Assembly: GCF_900519355.1 (NCBI RefSeq)
Contig: NZ_ULHE01000004.1
Coordinates: 186,001 to 250,000 of the forward strand
Reading direction: 5' to 3'
Source of the DNA: Corynebacterium lactis
GTDB taxonomy: Bacteria > Actinomycetota > Actinomycetes > Mycobacteriales > Mycobacteriaceae
DNA: 64,000 nucleotides
The position numbers were made by a program, and so were the translations under genes. Position 1 is the first letter of the stretch. The number at the start of each line of letters is the position of its first letter. Positions 48,889-57,820 of the stretch are shown one piece after another. The notes below the pieces were generated by a model. It made no database searches. It saw nothing but the letters and a program-made list of their open reading frames with translations, and was not told the DNA's origin.

Positions 48889-50747
48889 ATGAGCACTTCG
48901 CCCATCCATGGCAACGCGTCCCGAACCTTCCCCAAGCGCACCTTCCCTCGGGCCACATCTGAGCTTTTGTCCTCAGAATCTCTGCCCCCGGAGGCATTCA
49001 CTGTCGGCCCCTCGGCGACGGTGTCATCGGCAATCGGCGCCGTCCTGCGCGAGCACTGCACTCACTGCTTCGGGCTGATCGGCAACGCAAACTCCCACTT
49101 CATCTCCGCGCTGACGGAGTCGGGCTTCGGCTATACCTCGGTGCGCCACGAATCTTCGGCCGTCGGCGCGCCGACGCATACTTCCGCGCCTGCGGTTCCA
49201 TGGCGATCGCCACGACCACGTGTGGCGCCGGTTTCACCAACGCGCTCACCACGCTCGCTGAGGCGAAGGCCGCGCGCATCCCCCTTGTCTTAGTCACCGG
49301 CACGCACCCGGCCGCCGCCCGCCCCTTTGACCTCAATCAATCCGGGATGCTCGATGCCCTCGGCGTCTGCTATCTCACCGCATCTCCGTCGTCGGCGCTT
49401 TCCGACGCCCACATCGCCGCCGAGCTGGCCGCGTTCCTCCGGGAACCTGTCGTCGTGCAGATCCCATTCGATATCCAGGACTCTCCCCTCATCGACGGGG
49501 GCGATACCCCGAAGAATATCCACCTGATGGAAACCGCCACCAGCGCTCACGGGGCATCCTCTGCGCAGCACCAGCGGCCTTTGCATAACGACGGCGACAC
49601 GGCGCTGGACACCCCGTCGGCGACCGTGGAAGACGTTGCCCGCCTGCTGCTCGGGGCTCGCCGTCCGCTTATTGTTGCGGGCCGAGGCGTCCACCTATCC
49701 GGGACTGCCGACATCGTCCGGTCGATTGGCGACAGCGTCGGAGCGCTGTTTATGCACTCCGCGATGGCCCGTCACGTCGTCGACAGCCCGTGGGAGCTGG
49801 GCACGGTCGGCGGTTTTGCCCACTCGTGGCAGCATGAGCTGGCGCGGCAGGCCGACGTCGTCCTGGTCCTCGGAGCCAGCCTGAATGCTTTCCAGTGCCG
49901 CGGCGGAAACATGTTTGGCCACGACGCCACGATCGTCCATATTCTCGACGAGCCGCACCCCGCTTCCCTGCCTGCGAGTATCCGAATGTTCTCCGATCTG
50001 GAGGACATTCTTCCGGTCCTGCGCGACCTGGTTGCACCCGACCGCCTTCCCGCCCGCGACTCCCGGGATTCGAGTAGCTGGCGCGCACAGCTTGGCAGCT
50101 TGGACGCTCACCGCCCGGAGCGCATCGTCGAGTCCGCGACGTGCGCGGATGGCCGACTCGATCCGCGGGCCTGCCTGCAATTGCTCGATCAGCTTCTTCC
50201 CCAGCGCAGGTCGGTCTGCACGGACGGCGGCCACTTCCTGGGCTGGGTTCCGAAGTTCCTCGACGTGCCGGGGCCCGCCAACCAGGTCATCGTCGGCACC
50301 GCTATCCAGTCCATCGGGATGGGGCTCGGCTCGCTGGTCGGCGTGGCGGCAGCGCGCCCCGAGGACTACTGCGTCCTCGTCGCAGGCGACGGCGGCGGGA
50401 TGATGGGGCTGGCCGACCTGGGCTCGGCCATCGCAAGCTTGAACAGGGGCGCGATTGTGTTCATGAACGACGCCGCCTACGGCGCGGAGCTGCACCAGTA
50501 CAGCCAGGCGGGCCTCGACACCTCCTCCATGGTCATTGAGGACTGCGACTTCGCGGCCCTCGGCGAGGCCTTCAGCGCGACTGGATTCACTATTCGTACC
50601 GAGGAGGACTTCGCGTTGCTGCGGGACTACTTCGCGGCTCTGTCTGCCGAGCCACAGCCGGGAGAGCGCGCCGTCGCAGTCATTGACTTCAAAATCTCTC
50701 GCAGCGTCGTCGCGGATTTCGTCAAAGAGGTCCTCGCAAAGAAGTAG
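48889..50747 (+). CDS. Thiamine-diphosphate-dependent enzyme, acetolactate synthase-like, frameshifted
   Basis: About 619 residues if restored. The N-terminal domain has the catalytic glutamate in VRHESSAVGA, the middle is a Rossmann-like domain, and the C-terminal domain has the ThDP/Mg motif GDGGGMMGLADL...FMNDAAYG. A base is missing near 49171 (GGCGCGCC where GGCGCGGCC is expected); the second frame continues DAYFRACGSM. CACAAT ends 8 nt before the ATG. The family includes acetolactate synthase, benzoylformate decarboxylase and sulfoacetaldehyde acetyltransferase; the substrate is open. An MFS gene follows. Confidence 0.75.
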
Positions 50748-52274: not shown

Positions 52275-54452
52275 CTAGAACAGCGAGAGCTGTTCCGGGC
52301 CTTCGGGCGCGTCCGGGCCTTCGTCATCGGACTGGCCCTGGCCGTTTTCGGCCGCGGGGACGTCCGCCGGGGCGTCGGCAAGCGAGGAGGGCTCCGGGGC
52401 CTCGTGCTCGAGCATCTTGTAGAGCTTCTCGGTCTTGGTCAGGCGCAGCAGTTCGGCGTAGATGACCAGCTTCATCGAGCTGTTCAGAAGCGGCCCCAAC
52501 TGCACGAATAGGCCGTCGACATCGCCGTCGACCGCGAGGCACGCCCGGCGCAAGCTGTCCTCCGAGATGATCCAGCGAGAGGACTTCCCGCAGGTCTCGC
52601 GGTCACCGATGAAGTCCAGAGCCATCGAGACCGCGTTGCCGGGCACGCCATCGAGAGTCGCGCTCAGGCGCTCATTCGGGGTGGAATCCGTGAGCAGCTT
52701 CGAAATCTGCACCGCCTCGGCGGCGGGAATGTGGCCGGATGCGTATTCCGCTATCAGCTCCGCCATGCGTGGCACGCTGACGTACTGGTCGGTCAGCCAG
52801 GCATCATGCAGCGCGTACATGATGCTCATCGCCTGCCACGAGGACTGCCCCTGGTACAGGATGCCCAGGATTCCGGCCTGTTCCAGCAGCCAACTAATCA
52901 TTGAGTCCGGGTCCGCGCCGTTGCGCAGGCACAAGTTCTCCACGCGCCACAGCAGGTGATTCTCGACGCAGCAGCCGTAGTACTTCTGATCCTCCTCCAG
53001 CTGCGCGGCCAAGGACACGACCTCCCGCGCCGCACGCGGGTAGCCATAGGCGAGCGCAGCAGCTGCGTACTCCCCCGCATCGGCGGTCGCCCACGGGTAC
53101 TCGCCACTCCACTGCCCGCGTCCCGCTAAGAAACCGGCCACCAGGTATCCCCACTTTGCCGTGGCGTCGGCGCTGTACCAGCTCTCCAGCGCGCGTGGAG
53201 TCGGGTGGCCCGTCTGCGGGTCCAGTAGTCCCGCGTTGACCAGCATCTCGACGATCCACGGTGCCGCGAAGGCGTCCGCCCCGACGGATGCCGCGAAGTC
53301 CTGAATCCACAGCAGGCTCGACTGCTCGTAGATGTCCAGCGGGTCCTTCAGCCGCCCGTCGTTGCTGCCCGCAGCCTCCATGAATGCCGAGGCGAACGTC
53401 ACGGCGGCAACTGATGCCTCGGTCAACTCCTGCGGCTCGATGCTGCCGGGATACGGCTCGGTGCGGTGCGGGCGGCGAATAAACCAGCCTTTATCCTTCA
53501 GCGCGAGCGCTGCCGGCGCGGCGAAGCGCGCGACGAGTGGCTCCGAGTCCTCCCGCGGGGCGAACGAATAGACCGCCGAGTCCGGGTCGAGCGGGGCCAC
53601 GCACAAGAGGAGGCGCTCCTCCGCCCAGCGCACGGCATCCTCTCGCTGCTCCGACCACTGATCGAGCGGAATCGACTTATCGTCCAGCACCATCCAGCGC
53701 AGCTCATTGCGGATATCCACCGGTGCCGACGCCACCACCGAGCGCACCCGCACGGGATCGCACAGGTAGCTGCGGGCGATGCTCACCGCGCGGGAGAACA
53801 TCAGCGATTCGACCTCCGACTGCGCCCGAGACTCGCTGCTGCCACCGGGTTCTTCCCCGGCCTTGTCAGCGAAAGCCTCGCGGGCTGCTTCGCGTTCGTC
53901 CAGGTCGTCGATTCCGAGCCTGTCCATGCGCCGCTCCAGCGCACCGAGGTCGGAGTTGTGCACCAGATCCAGGACGCTAAAGTCCAGCGTCGGCTCCGCC
54001 GGGAAACGCTCAGAGATGTGCTTCGGCACATTCCAGACGCCCGCTGGCTCCTCCCACACGAGTCCCTGCCGCTGGCCCCGCTCCAGCAGCTCCTGAAGCT
54101 CCCGCTTGCCGACGCGCCGACGCTGCCTGTCCACGCCGTCCGGCCCGTCGTGCGCCGCCGTATCCGCCTCCGAGGCCCAAAAGGCAACGGAGAGGAGGGA
54201 CTCGACCGTCGCCGAATCCTCCAACGCGTGAATCATCTGCGCAACATCCAGGACGTCGGGGTCGCAGAAGGACAGCACCATCGTCGAGGCGGCCTCGGAC
54301 TGCAGCAAGTGCACGGCCTCATCGCCCTCCGGGCGCGGGCCCAGAATCGACGGCCAGGAGCGGTCCAGGAGGAAACGCAGATCAACCTCGCCGAGCCCAC
54401 GGATGTAATCCTCGTAGCTCGGCCGCGCGAAGTAGTCGACGTTGCGGTTCAT
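52275..54452 (-). CDS. Uncharacterised 725-residue protein ending in a clamp-binding-like QLSLF tail
   Basis: I cannot assign a family. The N-terminal 110 residues show Leu-rich helices (VDLRFLLDRSWPSILGPRP) reminiscent of helicase-associated proteins, and residues 115-150 (KRELQELLERGQRQGLVWEE) look like a winged helix. The last third is helical and then acidic, and the protein ends EGPEQLSLF. QL(S/D)LF is the known bacterial consensus for binding the beta sliding clamp, and a free C-terminal position is common for it. ATG at 54452 has CATAAT 8 nt upstream; TTG at 54458 is possible. Confidence 0.65.
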   Translation of the reverse strand: MNRNVDYFARPSYEDYIRGLGEVDLRFLLDRSWPSILGPRPEGDEAVHLLQSEAASTMVLSFCDPDVLDVAQMIHALEDSATVESLLSVAFWASEADTAAHDGPDGVDRQRRRVGKRELQELLERGQRQGLVWEEPAGVWNVPKHISERFPAEPTLDFSVLDLVHNSDLGALERRMDRLGIDDLDEREAAREAFADKAGEEPGGSSESRAQSEVESLMFSRAVSIARSYLCDPVRVRSVVASAPVDIRNELRWMVLDDKSIPLDQWSEQREDAVRWAEERLLLCVAPLDPDSAVYSFAPREDSEPLVARFAAPAALALKDKGWFIRRPHRTEPYPGSIEPQELTEASVAAVTFASAFMEAAGSNDGRLKDPLDIYEQSSLLWIQDFAASVGADAFAAPWIVEMLVNAGLLDPQTGHPTPRALESWYSADATAKWGYLVAGFLAGRGQWSGEYPWATADAGEYAAAALAYGYPRAAREVVSLAAQLEEDQKYYGCCVENHLLWRVENLCLRNGADPDSMISWLLEQAGILGILYQGQSSWQAMSIMYALHDAWLTDQYVSVPRMAELIAEYASGHIPAAEAVQISKLLTDSTPNERLSATLDGVPGNAVSMALDFIGDRETCGKSSRWIISEDSLRRACLAVDGDVDGLFVQLGPLLNSSMKLVIYAELLRLTKTEKLYKMLEHEAPEPSSLADAPADVPAAENGQGQSDDEGPDAPEGPEQLSLF

Positions 54453-54514
54453 AGCCAACCATTATGCACCACGCGCCGGAACGAGTCGCTCACCGGGCGA
54501 TTCGGGTGGCGCGC

Positions 54515-57500
54515 CTATCCGTGGTCCGGGTTCTCCTCGCCCCAGAAGACACGGTTGACCACGCGGCTGGCATGGCGCGTGATGCGCAAGTAGTTCTCCA
54601 TGAACCCGTTGGAGTCCGTCGGGTCCCAGCCCGCGGCACCCGCGACCTGCCCCAGCTGTCTTCCGGGCTGCGGCAACTGGTCGGTGCGCTTACCGCGGGT
54701 GAGCACCAGGGCGTTGCGGGCGTGCGTCGCAGTCAGCCAGGCCAGGCGCAGGGCCTCGGCGTCCTCATGACCGAGGATCTCGTGCTCCTCCAGCACGTGC
54801 AGGCACTGCAGCGTGGAGGTGTTGTGCAACTCCGGCACCTCGTGGGCGTGCAGGAAGGTCAGCAGCTGCACCGTCCATTCGATGTCGGTAAGCGCACCGG
54901 ATCCCAGCTTCGTGTGGGTGCGCCGGTCCGCGCCGCGCGGCAGGCGCTCGGTGTCGACGCGGGCCTTCATCCGGCGGATCTCCTGCACCATCTTCGGGCT
55001 CGCACCGCCCTCCGGGTAGCGCAGCGGATCGATGGCCCGCAGGAAACGCGTCCCCAGGTCCTCGTCGCCCGCGATCCAGGTGGCGCGCAGCAGCGCCTGC
55101 ATCTCCCACGTCTCACCCCAGCGCTCGTAGTAAGAAAGGTAAGACTCCAGGGTCCGCACGATGGGGCCGGAGCGACCCTCGGGCCGCAGATCGACGTCGA
55201 CCTCCAGTGGCGGGTCCTGGCTGGGCTTGGCAAGCCTGCGCCTTAGCGAGTCACAGATGCGCGTCGCCCACTTGACCACGTCGGTGTCGTCGGCAAGCGG
55301 GGTGCCGTCGGCGTCCTTGCGGGCCTCGCAGATGAACATCACGTCGGCGTCGGAGCCGTAGCCCAGCTCGGCGCCGCCGAGGCGCCCCATGCCAATCACC
55401 GAGATGATGCCGGGGATCTCGCGGTCCGGGTGCGCCTTGGCCCAGCCGCGGATCTCGGCCAGCAGCGCGGCCTCCAGTACGTTGTCCCACACCAGAGACA
55501 GGGAGTGGCACACCTGCTGGACATCCATCAGACCGAACAGGTCCGCCGAGGCGATACGCGCCAGCTCCGCGCGGCGCAGGGAACGCGCAACCGCAATCGC
55601 CCGCTCCGGGTCGTCGTGGCGCCCGGCGGCGGCGACCAGCGAACGGCCCACCGTCTGGGGGTCCGTATCCAGCAGCTTCGGACCCGTCGCGCCGTCTCCG
55701 AAGCGCTTGATGACCTCCGGGGCGTGCATGACCAACTCCGAGGCGTACGGCGAAGACCCCAGCACGTGCATCAGACGCTGGCCGACGATGCCCTCGTCGC
55801 GCAGCGTCCGCAGGAACCACTGGCGGTCATGCAGCTCCTCGGAGAGCTTGCGGTAGCCCAGCAGGCCCGCGTCCGGGTCGTGCGTGCTCGACAGCCACTC
55901 CATCAACGTCGGCAGCAGCATCGCCTGGATGCGGGCCTTGCGGGAACCGCCGGAGGCCAGCGCCGAGAGGTGGTCGTAGGCGCGGTCCGGATACTGGTAG
56001 CCGAGGGCCGCCAGCTGGCGCTTTGCCGCGTCGGCCGAGAGCTGCAGCGTCCCGATGTCCTGCTCCACCACGGAGTTCAGGAGCGGGCGGAAGAAGAGCT
56101 TGTTGTGCAGCGTGCGAATCTGCGTGCTCGTCGAACGAACGCGCTTCGCCAGCAGCTCCGCGGCGTCGCTGCCGCCCTGCCCCGTGAGCCCGGCGGCCCG
56201 GCCCAGCCAGCGGCGGTTCTCCAGGTCACTATCCTCCGGCAGGAGGTGCGTACGACGCATTTTCTGCAGCTGCAGCCGGTGCTCGAGCAGCCGCATGAAC
56301 TCGTACGCCTGGATCAGGGCGGCGCCGTCCTCGCGGCCGATGTACCCTGCCTCCACCAGGGCGTCCAGCGCCATCACCGTCGGCAGCACGCGCAGCGAAT
56401 CGTCGTAGCGGCCATGGACCAGCTGCAGCAGCTGCACCGCGAACTCGACGTCGCGCAGGCCACCGCGCCCCAACTTCAGCTCGCGGGGGCGCAGGTCCTC
56501 GGGGACGTTTTGGACCACGCGGGTGCGCATCTTCTGCACGTCCTCGACGAAGGACTCGCGCTGCGAGGCGGTCCACACCATCGGGGCGAGCGCCTCGATG
56601 TAGTCGTGGCCCAGGGCAACGTCGCCCGTCATCGGCCGGGCCTTCAGCAGCGCCTGGAACTCCCAGGTCTCCGCCCAGCGCTTGTAGTAGGCAACGTGGG
56701 ACTCCAGCGTGCGCACCAGCGCGCCGGACTTGCCCTCCGGCCGCAGCGCGGCGTCGACCTCGAAGAAGCAGTGGCTGGCAATGCGGATGAACTCGCTGGC
56801 CAGGCGCGTCGCGCGGGCGTTCGCCGGCTCGGCGACGAAGATCACGTCCACGTCGGAGATGTAGTTCAGCTCCTGCGCGCCGCACTTGCCCATGGCAATC
56901 ACGGCCAGGCGCGTCGACACCGGCGACGACGGGTAGACGGTCGCCACCGCCACCGACAGAGCTGCCGTCAGCGCCGCATCCGCCAGGTCCGACAGTGCCT
57001 CCGAGACCTGCCGGAAGGGGACCTCGGGCTGCCCCGGGCGCCGCGGCCCCCGCGGGTAGGTGCCCGCCAGGTCGGCCGCCGCGATGCGCATAATCAGGTT
57101 GCGGTAGGAGCGCTGCATCGCCACCTCCGCCTCGCGGCCGGTGAGCTCGGCGCGGTAGAGGCCCGGGCCCTCCAGCGTCGACGGTGCCACCACGGGCTCC
57201 CGGTATTCGAGGTCCTTCTCCCGCTCCAGGCTCTCCTCATCAACAAGATCCGGGGTTTCTGGGGCGGCGCGCACGCTGGTGAGCATCTCGCGGAACATGT
57301 CCGCCTGCGTCGGCAGATCCGCCTGCAGCAGAATCCACTCCACGGGGTTGGCGACCAGGTGATCGCCCAACATCGACGACCCGCCCAGCAGCGCGAACAT
57401 CCGGGTGCGCAGCGGCACCTGCTTGCGCATCGTGGCATCGAGCACCTGCCAGGACGCCCACTTTTCTAGCTCCCCGGCTTCCTCGCGCTCGTCCAGCGCA

Positions 57501-57697
57501 GCTTTCAGACGCACCAGAGCCATCAGCGCCAGGTTTGGATCGGACGCACCGGCGAGCCCCCAGAGAAGTTCGAGGGACTCAGCGTTGTACCAGCCGAGGT
57601 CGTGCAAATCCGTGAGCGTGCGCTCGTCGGCACGCAAGCCCAGCGCGGCGGGCTTCGGTACGGACTGGCGGGAGGTGCGCGGTCGGTTCATCACCAT
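54515..57697 (-). CDS. glnE: Glutamine synthetase adenylyltransferase GlnE
   Basis: Bifunctional enzyme that adenylylates and de-adenylylates GlnA in response to nitrogen. About 1060 residues with two nucleotidyltransferase domains: ELNYISDVDVIFVAE in the first half and ELGYGSDADVMFICE in the second, each followed by a GlnD-PII-like helical region with DLRPEGRSG/ALRPEGKSG. The start may be 57697 or 57691. It lies beside glnA2 on the same strand, as in mycobacteria; its target glnA is at 21.2 kb. Confidence 0.95.
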   Translation of the reverse strand: MVMNRPRTSRQSVPKPAALGLRADERTLTDLHDLGWYNAESLELLWGLAGASDPNLALMALVRLKAALDEREEAGELEKWASWQVLDATMRKQVPLRTRMFALLGGSSMLGDHLVANPVEWILLQADLPTQADMFREMLTSVRAAPETPDLVDEESLEREKDLEYREPVVAPSTLEGPGLYRAELTGREAEVAMQRSYRNLIMRIAAADLAGTYPRGPRRPGQPEVPFRQVSEALSDLADAALTAALSVAVATVYPSSPVSTRLAVIAMGKCGAQELNYISDVDVIFVAEPANARATRLASEFIRIASHCFFEVDAALRPEGKSGALVRTLESHVAYYKRWAETWEFQALLKARPMTGDVALGHDYIEALAPMVWTASQRESFVEDVQKMRTRVVQNVPEDLRPRELKLGRGGLRDVEFAVQLLQLVHGRYDDSLRVLPTVMALDALVEAGYIGREDGAALIQAYEFMRLLEHRLQLQKMRRTHLLPEDSDLENRRWLGRAAGLTGQGGSDAAELLAKRVRSTSTQIRTLHNKLFFRPLLNSVVEQDIGTLQLSADAAKRQLAALGYQYPDRAYDHLSALASGGSRKARIQAMLLPTLMEWLSSTHDPDAGLLGYRKLSEELHDRQWFLRTLRDEGIVGQRLMHVLGSSPYASELVMHAPEVIKRFGDGATGPKLLDTDPQTVGRSLVAAAGRHDDPERAIAVARSLRRAELARIASADLFGLMDVQQVCHSLSLVWDNVLEAALLAEIRGWAKAHPDREIPGIISVIGMGRLGGAELGYGSDADVMFICEARKDADGTPLADDTDVVKWATRICDSLRRRLAKPSQDPPLEVDVDLRPEGRSGPIVRTLESYLSYYERWGETWEMQALLRATWIAGDEDLGTRFLRAIDPLRYPEGGASPKMVQEIRRMKARVDTERLPRGADRRTHTKLGSGALTDIEWTVQLLTFLHAHEVPELHNTSTLQCLHVLEEHEILGHEDAEALRLAWLTATHARNALVLTRGKRTDQLPQPGRQLGQVAGAAGWDPTDSNGFMENYLRITRHASRVVNRVFWGEENPDHG

Positions 57698-57820
57698 GAG
57701 GAAAGGGTCACCCAATTTCAGCTTCGTTGACGGCGAGGGCCTTGACTGTCTGCGACTGTGTACGACTACCTGCGGCTACCTGCGACAATCTGCTAGCAGT
57801 ACCCGCGAGGCAGCGCGACG

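Follow-up and report, generated by a model that had tools for sequence, protein, structure and literature searches.

Directly downstream of glnE, the window (the whole stretch of 64,000 nucleotides analysed here) carries a gene whose product ends in a pentapeptide of the kind by which bacterial proteins dock on the sliding clamp, DnaN. What kind of protein bears this tail, and where in the cell would the tail bring it?

The gene and its neighbourhood

The open frame runs on the minus strand from an ATG at 54452 to a TAG at 52275-52277 and encodes 725 amino acids (Table 1). The original prediction gave no strand for 52275-54452; on the plus strand this stretch has several stops in the translated frame. 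The end EQLSLF that had been reported for the protein was confirmed, the frame reading GPEQLSLF with the stop codon TAG next. The gene glnE lies directly upstream across a gap of 62 nt and is itself preceded by glnA, both on the same strand as the gene studied here. The statement that the gene lies next to glnE holds for the window and for all 23 orthologue loci examined. Searched against Pfam and NCBIfam, the window's protein gives zero matches even at E 1. Two readings were rejected: a defence system, since three orthologues have no match in PADLOC, and an orphan of unknown fold, which is ruled out by a profile comparison that finds the family (see below). Elsewhere in the window, on the plus strand at 48889-50747, a thiamine-pyrophosphate enzyme is split, its TPP_enzyme_N domain being spread over two frames (48889-49293 and 49200-50747) through either a frameshift or a sequencing error.

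Table 1. Features of the locus, in positions of the window
Feature	Position	Strand	Basis
Gene of the putative p52-like protein ending in the clamp motif	52275..54452	-	open frame; orthologues in 15/242 Corynebacterium genomes
Terminal QLSLF (residues 721-725) with stop codon, putative beta-clamp-binding motif	52275..52292	-	Q-x-x-(L/I)-F in 15/15 orthologues
Low-complexity acidic linker, residues 674-720	52293..52433	-	pLDDT <50 for 674-725; poorly conserved
Clutch-like domain (PF13625-like), about residues 581-656	52485..52712	-	model; profile-match region; end of hhalign match
p52-like middle region, residues 331-547	52812..53462	-	VIA-align 6tru_B, 6trs_A
Possible winged-helix element, residues 115-150	54003..54110	-	helix and short hairpin in model; WEEPAGVW core
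-10-like hexamer CATAAT, 8 nt before ATG	54461..54466	-	same place in 12/13 orthologues aligned at start codon
glnE, neighbour outside the proposed mechanism	54515..57715	-	PF03710; adjoins the gene in 23/23 orthologue loci

A profile search found orthologues in 15 of the 242 Corynebacterium genomes, with glnE adjacent in each. Outside the genus the picture is thinner: matches were obtained in 24 of 401 genomes of the family, five of the 24 being Corynebacterium with the full gene, and in 32 of 394 genomes of the class, where our own genome gave the only full match; both sets are samples, and a full orthologue elsewhere is possible. The matches beyond the genus are weak, mostly restricted to a single domain, and fall in a wider helicase-associated family. 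Among named records, those of C. amycolatum and its relatives come closest to our own Corynebacterium genome. One orthologue locus, NZ_JVVM01000020.1, is titled C. vitaeruminis, but its protein is almost identical to the C. amycolatum one, and the record may carry the wrong species name.

An ATAAT-type element resembling a -10 hexamer occupies the same position before the start codon in all but one of the 13 orthologues aligned there; in the remaining one (L004) CATGAT lies 7 nt before an in-frame GTG, which may be the true start codon. The promoter scan found no full sigma-70 consensus site. The conserved element suggests that the gene is likely transcribed as a leaderless mRNA from a promoter of its own, and its position beside glnE thus need not mean a common function. 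This bears on the proposal that the protein is an accessory of the glnA-glnE cluster in nitrogen regulation and that its resemblance to DNA repair proteins is incidental. Such a role would explain why glnE accompanies the gene on the same strand at every locus examined; however, 227 of the 242 Corynebacterium genomes have no detectable orthologue, transcription seems to begin at a leaderless promoter that belongs to the gene itself, and neither Pfam nor NCBIfam gives a match to an enzymatic or PII-like family. We consider a nitrogen accessory highly improbable, and nitrogen regulation read from the neighbourhood alone was rejected as an explanation.

The C-terminal tail

The protein ends were read in all 15 genomes with the gene, and each has Q-x-x-(L/I)-F at or near its end. 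Six tails read QLSLF (our own genome, G033, G055, G104, G105 and G165), one QLALF (G243), one QLRLF (G038), and that of C. sputi (G253) reads QLSIF followed by six more residues, DSGDED. The remaining six (G144, G157, G158, G221, G222 and G277) read QPPLF, which departs from the QL(S/D)LF consensus at its second position. The strict consensus is thus present in 6/15 orthologues, a near form in 3/15 and a looser form in 6/15. Orthologues that lack the tail were looked for and none was found among the 15, the six with QPPLF having a weaker version of it. In an alignment of the 13 distinct orthologues at the motif, Q and F are invariant, the residue before F is L or I, and a P two places before the Q is likewise invariant (13/13), while the codons inside the motif vary synonymously. 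At least five of the QPPLF-tailed, long-tailed orthologues (L022-L026) carry an internal EPPLF as well, which may perhaps serve as a second docking site. The tail motif is confined to this group, at least among the 23 wider relatives whose C-terminus could be read: none has it within the last 60 residues.

Given the composition of the family, the probability that any one pentapeptide matches QLx(L/I)F is 7.6e-6. As a DNA pattern, QLx(L/F)F followed by a stop occurs three times in the 2.57-Mb genome and a reversed control pattern seven times, so that there is no enrichment at the DNA level. The window's gene is the one site of the three at which the pattern forms the end of a protein; one of the other two sites reads ...LFW without a stop, and the other ends no listed frame of 80 amino acids or more. 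We regard the conservation among orthologues as the decisive evidence, within the sequence comparison, that the tail exceeds chance.

The same genome offers a direct comparison, as its own NucS ends in ELRLF. One review gives the clamp motif of actinobacterial NucS as [E/K]-[L/Y]-[T/R]-L-F and describes the C-terminal region of C. glutamicum NucS as needed for clamp binding (PMC8228993), and another describes QL(S/D)LF at C-termini as a bacterial clamp motif that tolerates variation (PMC9690074). EndoMS/NucS resembles our protein in the type of its C-terminal clamp motif, but it is a nuclease (PF01939) encoded here by a separate gene, whereas the clamp-motif protein has no such domain (no Pfam match). 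By the expression used, neither of this genome's two PF00817 polymerase frames (one of them cut) shows the motif. Together with the conservation in 15/15 orthologues, the NucS tail speaks against a mere coincidence of five letters, and we rejected that reading.

An alternative explanation is that the motif is a protease tag or the ligand of some other pocket, and that the body acts elsewhere. Short motifs are easily shared, and the QPPLF of six of the 15 orthologues is weak by consensus. However, the Q, the (L/I) and the F that are kept in these proteins are those that would be expected to occupy the clamp pocket. In C. sputi, six more residues follow the QLSIF, contrary to what a tag read from a free carboxyl end would require, so that the motif need not be terminal; NucS of the window's genome, moreover, ends with a tail of the same type. 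The tag or other ligand appears improbable to us, and we consider it quite likely that the protein binds DnaN.

The motif is carried at the end of a segment that is predicted to be flexible. Residues 674-725 have a pLDDT below 50, which predicts disorder, and the linker varies among the orthologues in both sequence and length: in the six orthologues compared, the 47-residue linker is 15-38% identical to that of the window's protein, and the body is 30-66% identical. The original prediction had guessed a clamp-docking factor. As a proposal from sequence this is reasonable, and the conserved, NucS-like motif, placed behind a linker that is predicted to be disordered, speaks for it; the relation of the body to helicase-associated proteins and its likeness to TFIIH p52, described below, were not foreseen.

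The body of the protein

What the present analysis adds is that the body, as judged from profile comparison, is related to the family of XPB partners. An hhalign comparison between the 13 orthologues and an alignment of seven actinobacterial helicase-associated proteins (A3; PF13625, Helicase_C_3, was found in all four of the seven that were scanned) gave a probability of 99.6 and an E-value of 1.8e-24 over 527 columns, the match spanning residues 13-660 at about 20% identity. The first match outside the genus is also a helicase-associated protein. The same method gave a probability of only 5.6 against the single XPB-adjacent partner of our own genome. PF13625 itself is absent above its curated cut-off and occurs below threshold in two of the 13 orthologues (best E 0.022); because it stays below the cut-off, we file the clamp-motif protein as a divergent relative of the PF13625 proteins and not as a member.

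The clutch-like region, modelled as strand-helix-strand-strand-helix-helix, is the part best kept in the profile matches to the wider family. Apart from homology over the stretch given above, the PF13625 proteins share with the clamp-motif protein a similar length (about 750-830 aa) and the place of this domain. The two differ at the C-terminus, where the family has a further part that includes a WYL domain in two of the six helicase-associated proteins scanned, and the clamp-motif protein has the linker and the motif. No C-terminal WYL domain was found in the clamp-motif protein, although its detection in only 2/6 of the scanned relatives makes this a weak criterion. They also differ in neighbourhood: the PF13625 partner in this genome adjoins XPB, and the clamp-motif gene adjoins glnE instead (adjacency to XPB was checked for Corynebacterium proteins).

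A structure predicted from a 13-row alignment is of moderate quality (mean pLDDT 69.5, pTM 0.49); a model of residues 228-685 alone, from five rows, reached a mean pLDDT of 48.5 and was not usable. In Foldseek, the only PDB match with an E-value under 0.001 is 7egc_4 (E 6.4e-4, probability 0.99), followed by 8ebs_D and 6nmi_D, and the three best matches all come from entries that contain TFIIH. In VIA-align, ranks 1 to 15 are all p52 or TFIIH-containing entries with Z-scores of 7.1-8.6, where values below 8, or below about 13 for helical folds, can reflect a common arrangement; FokI and CED-4 chains come below rank 15 at Z 7.0. The titles of 6tru and 6trs alone name p52, and most of the other chains were assigned from a TFIIH title and the residue range. 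The p52 crystal structures 6tru_B (Z 8.4) and 6trs_A (Z 8.1) align with an rmsd of 3.7 over 152-153 residues. The long p52 alignments have rmsd values of 9-20, which suggests that single domains match p52 better than the whole does.

The Tfb2 models PF03849 and Tfb2_C (PF18307) have no match to the clamp-motif gene, and the matches of PF18307 in three of 12 genomes look like chance. Searches of PDB sequences with A1 (E 1), A2 (E 10), A3 (E 1) and the partner (E 1) returned no TFIIH chain, and that with A2 gave two weak, unrelated chains. The best PDB matches of the predicted fold are to p52/Tfb2 (GTF2H4), and in the moderate model a clutch-like domain would follow helical and winged-helix-like domains, as in p52; set against this likeness are the failure of the Tfb2 sequence models and the lack of a TFIIH context in bacteria. 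No clamp motif is known in p52. We take it that a p52-like fold is likely for the helicase-associated family and moderately likely, on the strength of the model, for the clamp-motif protein.

A winged helix had been proposed at residues 115-150 and taken to point to DNA. The element is only partly supported: the model shows a helix (116-128) followed by a short hairpin of two strands and another short helix, at a block pLDDT of 53-76, and the WEEPAGVW core is conserved with changes. The step from a winged helix to DNA does not follow on its own, because the winged helices of p52 mainly contact other proteins. A contact of one p52 winged helix with a protein has been described (PMC6422496).

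XPB and a proposed role at the clamp

If the body is p52-like, the DNA-repair helicase XPB would be a candidate partner. Our own genome encodes XPB (848 bits against the NCBIfam XPB model, cut-off 610) side by side with a PF13625 partner (L013:4035-6455, minus strand). Each of the two proteins contains one PF13625 domain, which makes two in this genome. Within TFIIH, XPB pairs through its N-terminal domain with the clutch of p52 in a pseudo-symmetric arrangement (PMC6422496), and the two PF13625 domains would suit such an arrangement. A further source states that p52 regulates XPB and that archaeal Bax1, too, is associated with XPB (PMC13024598). As a nuclease that binds the thumb and the second helicase domain of XPB, Bax1 differs from the clamp-motif protein. 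The Tfb2 model PF03849 gives one sub-threshold match in each of five of 12 genomes (E 0.013-0.47), every time in the PF13625 region of the XPB-adjacent partner and never in the clamp-motif gene; at the same loose limit, six of 14 control genomes also match below the cut-off. Likeness to p52 may be a general property of bacterial XPB partners. In genome G165, two extra PF13625 matches beyond the usual pair lie in 549-aa frames at C1:2191100-2198164, possibly further XPB-like copies.

We lean slightly towards the reading in which the protein is a divergent relative of the PF13625 proteins, with a p52-like fold and with a flexible, clamp-motif tail in place of the family's C-terminal domain, that holds its body at replisome or repair sites and there engages XPB or a partner. 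The tail would dock in the hydrophobic pocket of DnaN and, once docked, would anchor the p52-like body to the replisome or to sites of repair. The clutch-like domain would then engage XPB, by matching its N-terminal clutch, or the usual partner of XPB, and this engagement would bring the XPB translocase, or a related repair activity, to the clamp or regulate it there. The protein may act in repair at forks. The engagement of XPB is the more tentative part of this reading, and we rate it as possible but short of probable.

A different possibility is that the tail docks on the clamp and that the body has lost its link to XPB, in which case the protein would be a stand-alone scaffold or regulator bound to the clamp, such as a competitor of NucS or of translesion polymerases for the clamp. 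Several observations fit this explanation: the large divergence from the PF13625 family (about 20% identity), the absence of a PF13625 match in the window's protein, and the location of the gene away from XPB. Co-occurrence gives the link to XPB no support, as a PF13625 match is present in 14 of the 15 genomes with the gene and in 15 of 15 without it. The exception, the metagenome-assembled genome G243, has the gene, but neither a PF13625 match nor XPB. However, the contig that bears XPB in our own assembly is short (17,292 bases), and in several other assemblies XPB is close to the end of a contig; its absence from G243 may therefore be a gap. Furthermore, it is the clutch-like region that is best kept in the profile matches to the wider family. 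We consider the stand-alone scaffold or regulator rather unlikely.

Returning to a protein that engages XPB, a broader and doubtful extension is that Actinobacteria have a TFIIH-like pair of XPB and a p52-like clutch protein, and that in one lineage of Corynebacterium a second p52-like subunit, gained by duplication or acquisition, was fitted with a clamp tether, which would deliver XPB to the clamp. If this were the case, DNA opening of the TFIIH type would be connected with the replisome in bacteria.

The function of XPB in bacteria is poorly understood. A 2012 study of XPB from M. tuberculosis states that p52 homologues had not been found in bacteria (PMC3353954), and among the open-access PMC papers that our searches listed we recognised no description of this protein or of a bacterial p52-like family. 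If the bacterial helicase-associated proteins are p52-like, they would be a candidate for the missing partner of XPB, and the version with a clamp tail would suggest a site of action, the sliding clamp.
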